DNA from: Labilibacter sediminis
GTDB taxonomy: Bacteria > Bacteroidota > Bacteroidia > Bacteroidales > Marinilabiliaceae
Assembly: GCF_005877885.1 (NCBI RefSeq)
Contig: NZ_VCHY01000017.1
Location: forward strand, 62,001 to 126,000
Length of the DNA: 64,000 bases
Direction: 5' to 3'
Shown: one piece after another, positions 52,634-52,857 of the stretch
Numbering within the stretch: the stretch's first letter is position 1
Layout of the letters: each line of letters begins with the position of its first letter
Program-made: the position numbers and the translations under genes
Notes under the pieces: generated by a model
What the model was told of the DNA's origin: nothing
The model's database searches: none
The model's input: the letters and a program-made list of their open reading frames with translations, nothing else

Positions 52634-52857
52634 CTATACATACAAGTCATTAAATGGACTTTTTAATTTACTTATGTCTTTTTTTGATATATAAGTGTAG
52701 TTTTCGTGCTCGAATGCACAAGTTGCATCTGAATATTACGAATATCCATACCCTAATCATATAAATGTGTAACAAAAGAATGACGCAACATGTGTGGGGT
52801 AACACTCTTATCAATACCTGCTGTTAAAACTACTTTTTTTACAACTTTTTGTGCACA
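52634..52857 (-). pseudogene. Integron-type tyrosine integrase, C-terminal relic
   Basis: Reading the minus strand from 52857: [32 protein letters not shown], a stop codon, [20 protein letters not shown] and IYQKK. After a frame change, ISKLKSPFNDLYV and stop follow. The box-II elements R-H (LRHSF), H (VHSS) and the nucleophile Tyr (IYQ) are still visible. The STKTTxIY and KSPxDDL phrases are those of IntI and related Bacteroidota integrases. An in-frame TAG, a frameshift, Gly-to-Val in GHSS and loss of the N-terminal two thirds make it inactive. It is on the cassette strand, pointing at attI. Confidence 0.85.

Follow-up and report, generated by a model that had tools for sequence, protein, structure and literature searches.

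What kind of recombinase left the remnant that heads the gene cassettes of the window (the whole stretch of 64,000 nucleotides of Labilibacter sediminis that was analysed), and which enzyme, if any, can still move them? The remnant is a real, decayed tyrosine recombinase, and it heads a true integron array. We hold it very probable that it is what remains of a Bacteroidia-type integron integrase, a tyrosine recombinase encoded on the strand of its cassettes and devoid of the IntI-specific insert, and that the array is no longer served in cis. Such an enzyme would end some 40-380 bp before attI, and cassettes would be captured via attC sites acting as folded single-strand hairpins; capture by attC x attI recombination, with the folded strand as substrate, is the role that we infer for this recombinase.

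The relic spans the last ~75 codons of an integron recombinase gene of the Carboxylicivirga type (52634-52854, minus strand), recognised by a PF00589 match, by its relatives and by its place in a tree. In the profile search PF00589 is over its cut-off (E 5.6e-15, 57.4 bits) with one TAG within the match, in frame at 52753-52755 (minus strand), and the frame changes directly past the Tyr codon, after which the shifted frame reads ISKLKSPFNDL. A preliminary description of this DNA had proposed a decayed integrase at 52634-52857 with a stop and a frameshift, and both lesions are indeed there. Among the motifs it listed, LRHSF, VHSS and the Tyr are present, but the SPxDDL tail is not: the relic has SPFNDL, where the five closest intact relatives have SPLDDL or SPIDDL. 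The best matches are to intact genes coding for 463-482 aa, with identities of 73% (G019) and 68% (G034), both over about 71 residues, 61% (G021), 59% (G033) and 57% (G027); G019, G034 and G027 are in the same family as the window's genome, and the likeness to the G019 and G034 proteins is, to judge from these alignments, far beyond chance. Reckoned from a 463-aa relative, ~83% of the gene, its 5' part, is missing. The 14-mer ATGCAACTTGTGCA occurs twice on the minus strand, at the 5' breakpoint of the relic (52852-52865) and within it (52715-52728).

About 15 cassettes lie to the left of the relic and on the same strand, their ORFs parted by sites of 47-202 bp that belong to several families. 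The relic was said to lie on the cassette strand and to point at attI, as is the case. Starting from the relic, and always on the minus strand, cassette A (50790-52253, start near 52253) has a DUF4238, defence-like ORF at 50933-52225 and its attC at 50790-50932. It is followed by B (49478-50799; ORF 49681-50763, attC 49478-49677), CD (48433-49487; two ORFs, attC 48433-48517), E (47047-48441; attC 47047-47184), F (45211-47055; a PDC-S39-like, defence-like gene with DUF4209 at 45265-47013, attC 45211-45258) and G (43743-45220; attC 43743-43881). About 95 unassigned bp separate the core of G from the start of H (42764-43649; TPR protein, attC 42764-42959), beyond which come I (40493-42773; a defence-like gene with NERD and UvrD helicase at 40558-42720, attC 40493-40554), J (38498-40502; attC 38498-38635), K (37801-38507; attC 37801-38001) and LM (36360-37809; a defence-like DpnII-MboI-type nuclease at 37037-37783 and a second ORF, attC 36360-36498). 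The array goes on with N (34508-36369; DMP19/MORN, attC 34508-34591), O (33253-34517; pentapeptide repeats, attC 33253-33299) and P (32188-33261; attC 32188-32389), and closes with Q (31437-32196), whose last site runs into a sequence resembling the 3' end of a group II intron (31437-31518, plus strand; Rfam, under the gathering score). This sub-threshold intron end was the sole match up to E 1 in an Rfam search of 29000-63500, which returned no attC family. By eye, a similar group II intron 3'-end-like sequence is found at L054:10020-10130, near a relative's integrase.

The cassettes have ends that belong together. In a test whose boxes were typed by eye, and which is therefore partly selected, the TTRRRY-like starts of 14 window cassettes paired with the box before their own site at 110 of 126 positions, a value that none of 200,000 permutations reached (mean 64.2, maximum 93), against 59 of 117 for pairing with the start of the next cassette, the neighbour that is physically at the junction. 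When boxes were placed by rule, over 130 cassettes from 34 sequences including the window (L049, L050 and L052 left out as duplicates), own-end pairing averaged 5.55 of 6, with 108 perfect cases, compared with 2.17 for the next cassette, 2.12 for cassettes permuted overall and 3.00 for those permuted within a locus. Passage of cassettes through a circular form with a folded site would lead one to expect such own-end pairing. Judged by this pairing, the window array is a genuine integron array, its cassettes being recombination units whose start pairs with their own 3' box.

Neither a stem-and-box detector nor a chain search for attC told the array apart from shuffled sequence, and a covariance model was used instead. 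This model, R1, has 140 positions and was made from an alignment (A3) of 19 sites, four of them from the window and the rest from eleven other loci. The aligned sites form one predicted hairpin of 20 pairs, with AAC facing GTT, an unpaired part, and a run of 16 pairs broken by two 1x1 interruptions; 93.7% of the cells are paired, and in 14 of the 20 pairs both partners change. Covariation scores 0.501, compared with 0.156 in shuffled alignments (0 of 500 shuffles reach it) and 0.045-0.089 when the structure is slid, bearing in mind that a structure drawn from the same alignment is favoured over its slid versions. In this predicted fold the sites have the form of canonical attC, imperfect single-strand hairpins bounded by AAC and GTT boxes. 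R1 finds five sites in the window, at 33-119 bits, of which four had been used to train it; in 30 canonical IntI loci, flanks of 1.5 kb included, it found none, so that it is not a general attC model. Six matches below 26.5 bits were dropped: four were minus-strand shadows of sites on the plus strand, and the other two were a plus-strand match in L111 and one on the minus strand in L064.

The identity of the relic was addressed by a tree of 79 rows, in which it falls within a Marinilabiliaceae clade (100/100), with the IntI proteins on one side of a 100/100 branch and the genome's own XerC/D in a separate clade (100/99); L004, L040 and L021 are long branches in this tree, the relic fills 20% of the columns, and the IntI rows are from outside Treponema. 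The phylogeny that had been proposed as a check thus placed the relic with Marinilabiliaceae recombinases, and with neither IntI nor the genome's XerC/D. Canonical IntI (VchIntIA, 2A3V) has a ~41-residue insert between patches II and III, which is lacking in the aligned relatives: pairwise alignment to 2A3V leaves about 42 IntI residues without a partner in an intact relative, and in the A6 alignment the insert block is missing in 24 rows of the present type and present in 5 IntI rows. The spacing from patch II to LRHSF, readable in 34 of 80 relatives, is 60 residues in 28, 61 in 4, 59 in 1 and 113 in 1, compared with 102 in 25 and 101 in 1 of the 26 readable IntI proteins (out of 29). A second spacing pattern gives 56-60 in relatives (33 of 80 readable), and in IntI 101 in 25, with outliers at 65 and 110 (27 of 29 readable). 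The relic itself begins downstream of the insert position, and its own want of an insert is what we infer from its clade. The extra helix that the intact version had been expected to carry is therefore absent from the aligned intact relatives, and the label IntI-like given to the relic has to be abandoned, as the latter also lies outside the 100/100 canonical IntI clade.

The five intact relatives and the intact integrase on contig C99 of the window's genome (see below) score 176.1-222.1 bits with TIGR02249, whose cut-off is 265 and with which a canonical IntI reaches 456. With NF040815, the XerA profile (cut-off 220), the five relatives score 220.6-236.7 bits and the C99 integrase stays below, at 204. 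The catalytic part has its top fold match in 4A8E (Z 23.8, against 21.8 for IntI 2A3V). XerA-type recombinases (NF040815; 4A8E, 5HXY) are hence both the closest profile and the top fold match of the catalytic part, but many of the integrases considered here differ from them by an extra N-terminal module and by heading cassette arrays.

Could the relic still be a decayed canonical IntI in reverse orientation, as in Treponema? TIGR02249 does match it, at E 7.5e-20 and 71.5 bits (on a remnant of only 60-70 residues, where NF040815 gives 72.2 bits), a genuine cassette array adjoins it, and the available portions of PMC3607928 describe Treponema intI as transcribed towards attI. The exclusion from the IntI clade at 100/100, the insert missing in the aligned intact relatives and the scores of six intact proteins under the TIGR02249 cut-off nevertheless make this very unlikely, as does the result, detailed further on, that none of 119 Bacteroidia genomes reaches that cut-off. 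The integrons of Treponema, as far as those portions go, share with the present ones an integrase transcribed towards attI in the cassette direction, but they are described as intI-based and belong to Spirochaetota.

Intact relatives allow the layout to be examined where the platform is whole. Their loci were gathered with a profile of five intact relatives, and the following counts concern 79 oriented loci (L069-L147) from the best 80 of 345. All 175 R1 matches scoring 26.5 bits or more are co-oriented with the integrase and located 3' of it, 23 of them in the eight loci that supplied training sites, and no such match occurs in 647 kb of 5' flank (the 3' flank covered being 300 kb). At least one site is found in 44 of the 79 loci, and in 36 of the 71 that supplied no training site; the first site lies at a median of 917 bp past the integrase stop. 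In 33 of the 35 loci without a site, the contig or locus ends at most 2.6 kb from the integrase, L075 and L123 being the exceptions. Contig ends within 1.5 kb are themselves asymmetric, 36 of 79 loci having one on the 3' side and 4 of these 79 one on the 5' side (one-sided cases, 35 versus 3; p 6.7e-8; L069-L148 without L100), with the proviso, common to all statistics over loci given here, that the loci are not phylogenetically independent. For L100, the tblastn range served as the integrase in the site and repeat counts. A search for short repeats that uses no model gave the same picture: 186 in 3' flanks versus 7 in 5' flanks of equal length, over the 29 loci whose flanks reach 3 kb or more on each side; repeats were confined to the 3' flank in 19 of these loci and to the 5' flank in 2, occurred in both flanks in 1 and were absent from both in 7. 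The 16 canonical IntI loci counted from this phylum had 56 repeats on the 5' side versus 14 on the 3' side, in flanks of unequal length.

Exceptions exist. Among L049-L068, nine loci have sites and seven of them fit the layout (L050, L052, L055, L059, L061, L064 and L067), L050 and L052 being repeats of L076 and L078; L065 departs, with five sites on the other strand and on both sides of the integrase, and so does L066, with one of two sites 5' of it. Of 15 contigs with an integrase and sites among the matches listed, 12 fit by hand count and three depart, namely G451:C1 (2.4 kb, 5', other strand), G424:C7 (22 kb, 5', other strand) and G109:C16 (141 kb away). Over the loci compared, members of this recombinase group as a rule have the same-direction layout, with few exceptions. 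Intact versions in the orientation of the relic, for which a search had been suggested as a check, are found in named Carboxylicivirga, where same-direction integrases head arrays; the layout noted at the relic is real, but it is a property of the group and not an oddity of a single locus. As a separate observation, the integrase of the Marinilabiliaceae bacterium N1Y90 (L077:9992-11388) appears as two overlapping ORFs heading an array, possibly a second interrupted copy.

This layout bears on two further explanations. In the first, a XerC/XerD, phage or transposon integrase would have left the relic, which would adjoin the array by chance. NF040815 does slightly exceed TIGR02249 on the remnant, and all three intact integrases compared with PHROGs have matches to its integrase families. 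We find this very unlikely, however, since the genome's own XerC/D form a clade apart, close relatives head attC arrays and have a common motif between stop and attI, and the sites are 3' and co-oriented in 175 of 175 cases (79 loci, from the best 80 of 345); the phage-integrase and the Treponema-like readings were both set aside on tree and layout. The second, that the repeats are ordinary palindromic REP-like repeats and no recombination sites, might draw on the palindromic nature of the sites and on the weak shadow matches on the other strand, but the pairing of each cassette with its own end is unexpected for REP elements and the side and strand relative to the integrase are strict in the 79 loci (from the best 80 of 345), so that we give it almost no credit.

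If the relic is, as we favour, a Bacteroidia-type integron integrase, what remains of its platform? The AT-rich stretch just after it (52600-52636, minus strand) is 84-90% identical over 30-36 nt to L069, L070, L071 and L077, which are intact Carboxylicivirga-type platforms. The motif GTGACTCAGGAGGCGAAGC (52429-52447, minus strand) is common to the platforms of two integrase types, and the resemblance switches type at this point: the attI half that follows (52249-52452, minus strand) matches the attI region of C99 with 71% identity in an alignment of 217 columns. By these resemblances the window platform is a chimera, Carboxylicivirga-type after the relic and C99-like from GTGACTCAGGAGGCGAAGC to attI. 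The lost 5' part of the gene, its stop and frameshift and the C99-like attI half all argue that the array would no longer be served in cis. By pattern, motifs like GTGACTSAGGAGGCGAAGC are seen between the integrase stop and attI in the window, in L149 at about 10843, and in L069, L070, L072, L073, L075, L076 and L077. A candidate attI next to the integrase was assigned by sequence in several platforms; in Flavobacteriaceae (L114, L117, L118, L125, L133), by eye, it has palindromes directly before the GTT core, at most about 100 bp from the stop. No motif present in most clades emerged from a search for 9-mers shared past the integrase stop.

C99:28650-43726 (L149), in the same genome, is an intact integron, with a 684-aa integrase of another branch, same-direction cassettes, the motif, a candidate attI and four model sites; in its first cassette, TTGGCAACC at the start pairs with GGTTGCCAAC at the end. 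The first sites of its array belong, by eye, to the same families as those of the window, and further sites of the genome are found on C34, C311, C362, C1, C88, C144, C342 and C251. The array had been described as orphaned unless a related integrase acts in trans, and this intact neighbour with its similar attI makes such an action plausible: the C99 integrase could serve the window array in trans, at least between attC sites, and the cassettes, if still active, would depend on it. This proposal is drawn from attI similarity, and the cores differ, both core triplets being GGT in the window and GTT in C99. It is also quite possible, at slightly less than even chances in our view, that the locus is wholly dead, its cassettes moving only with their island and the C99 integrase having no part in it, which is compatible with our main reading. 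The large 5' loss, the stop and frameshift, the divergent attI cores and the marks of an inserted island described below speak for it; on the other side stand the five window sites that match R1 (four of them having trained it) and the site families that, by eye, also come first in the C99 array, with which excision by attC x attC recombination in trans would be possible.

Clusters of attC lacking a neighbouring integron integrase are known as CALINs, and the window array, having no intact integrase beside it, is one of them. It differs from a plain CALIN in that the platform can still be recognised by its relic, motif and attI half; the intact integrases of its relatives are, moreover, under the canonical IntI cut-off.

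The integron sits in an island of ~32.7 kb (29822-62518) that splits a yfcE-like gene. The N-terminal half of this gene (62501-62773, minus strand) lies beside sixA and the C-terminal half (29575-29868, minus strand) at the opposite end, with TATCC common to both junctions (29822-29826 and 62514-62518) and a large serine recombinase at the right end (60848-62455, minus strand). The two halves are joined in one gene in 7 of 8 relatives of the same genus (G006 gave no match), and sixA adjoins it in 6 of these 7 loci. Large serine recombinase islands are a known kind of element, with the recombinase gene at one end, a split target gene and a few shared bases at the junctions, and the present element is one: its recombinase is terminal, and its target is interrupted here and unbroken in relatives. 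The split gene and the adjacent recombinase indicate that the integron travels, or travelled, on such an island, whose cargo is unlike that of the known kind in consisting of an integron platform, its array and a second, intact yfcE-like gene. This last gene (30019-30525, plus strand), just inside the island and 73.8-82.0% identical to seven orthologues, looks as if it replaced the broken target.

How general is this kind of integron? It shares with canonical, IntI-based integrons cassettes mostly of one or two genes with mutually pairing ends, and attC sites predicted to fold into one imperfect hairpin with AAC/GTT boxes, and its platform, with a candidate attI, is putatively of the same kind; it differs in that canonical intI normally diverges from the cassettes, whereas the integrase here points along them and forms a separate clade. 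R1 sites occur at E 1e-5 or better in 86 of 119 Bacteroidia genomes, that of the window included. TIGR02249 was over its cut-off in 0 of 119 Bacteroidia genomes (apparently the same draw), and in none of 14 controls either; as a positive control it was over the cut-off in 84 of 296 genomes of the whole phylum, and one of those 84, G097, shows in a separate draw that canonical IntI is present in this class. A class-wide A6 search retained 283 of 295 genomes at 1e-40, a figure that includes Xer proteins and is not a count of integrases.

A Bacteroidia-type integron of this kind is apparently widespread and overlooked. Among the papers listed in searches of full texts from non-subscription journals, we found no integrons of Bacteroidia or integrases without the insert. 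Same-direction integrases are known from Treponema (PMC3607928) and Spirochaetota (PMC9668308), in the portions available of both. As far as the excerpts available go, the 2008 survey (PMC2426708) picked genes containing the IntI-specific domain, the archaeal paper (PMC9668308) calls this domain necessary, IntegronFinder 2.0 (PMC9024848), which also covers In0, cites one complete integron, in Salinibacter, for Bacteroidetes proper, and Bacteroidetes figure in lists of phyla (PMC8618304, PMC2426708). The idea may nonetheless exist in annotation, since the NCBI product name of NF040815 is 'site-specific tyrosine recombinase/integron integrase'.

A broader proposal, to which we give even chances, is that Bacteroidia have an integron type of their own, with sites in most sampled genomes, in which XerA-like recombinases that never had the I2 insert capture cassettes via single-strand attC hairpins, the hairpin being read by other parts of the protein, possibly the N-terminal module. 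If true, there would be a second way of recombining cassettes as single strands, and surveys, by requiring the IntI insert, would have passed such integrons over. Should the linked recombinases be the integrases, a large class of bacteria would hold a big, uncatalogued pool of cassettes, those of the window including defence-like genes, and the view of the I2 helix as the innovation that allowed single-strand recombination, as expressed in the available part of PMC7790495, would become directly testable.

The N-terminal module precedes the SAM-like domain and amounts to about 90 extra residues in Flavobacteriaceae rows and about 180 in Carboxylicivirga, where it is predicted to consist of two ββαββαβ repeats (model of residues 1-183, pLDDT 78.1, pTM 0.42). 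In four integrases scanned with Pfam it had no match at 0.01, and the model of residues 1-183 had no Foldseek match at 0.001, SMARCAL1 HARP coming at E 0.44. In a second structure comparison, the second repeat resembled eIF1/YciH-like chains (Z 6.3-6.5), XPB damage-recognition domains (Z about 6) and MutS-beta (about 4.4). A fold assignment was dropped, as all matches are too weak for kinship and the eIF1/YciH-like ones are level with or above XPB. The module, duplicated in the clade of the relic, is possibly, in its predicted form, weakly like readers of DNA structure such as the XPB damage-recognition domain, among other folds. In L086 and L112 sites are present and the module is absent from the ORF as called, which argues against the module being essential. 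These two loci are on metagenome-assembled contigs labelled Fermentibacterota and Syntrophaceae, with the same type of integrase and sites, by transfer or misbinning.

Finally, a conserved ORF of 108-132 aa is divergent from the integrase in L049, L050, L052, L053, L058, L070-L072, L074 and L077. It is not among the ORFs listed beside the relic, and the one member searched had no Pfam (0.01) or PHROG (0.001) match; most of these ORFs carry the motif CxxC...GRSDKKFC.
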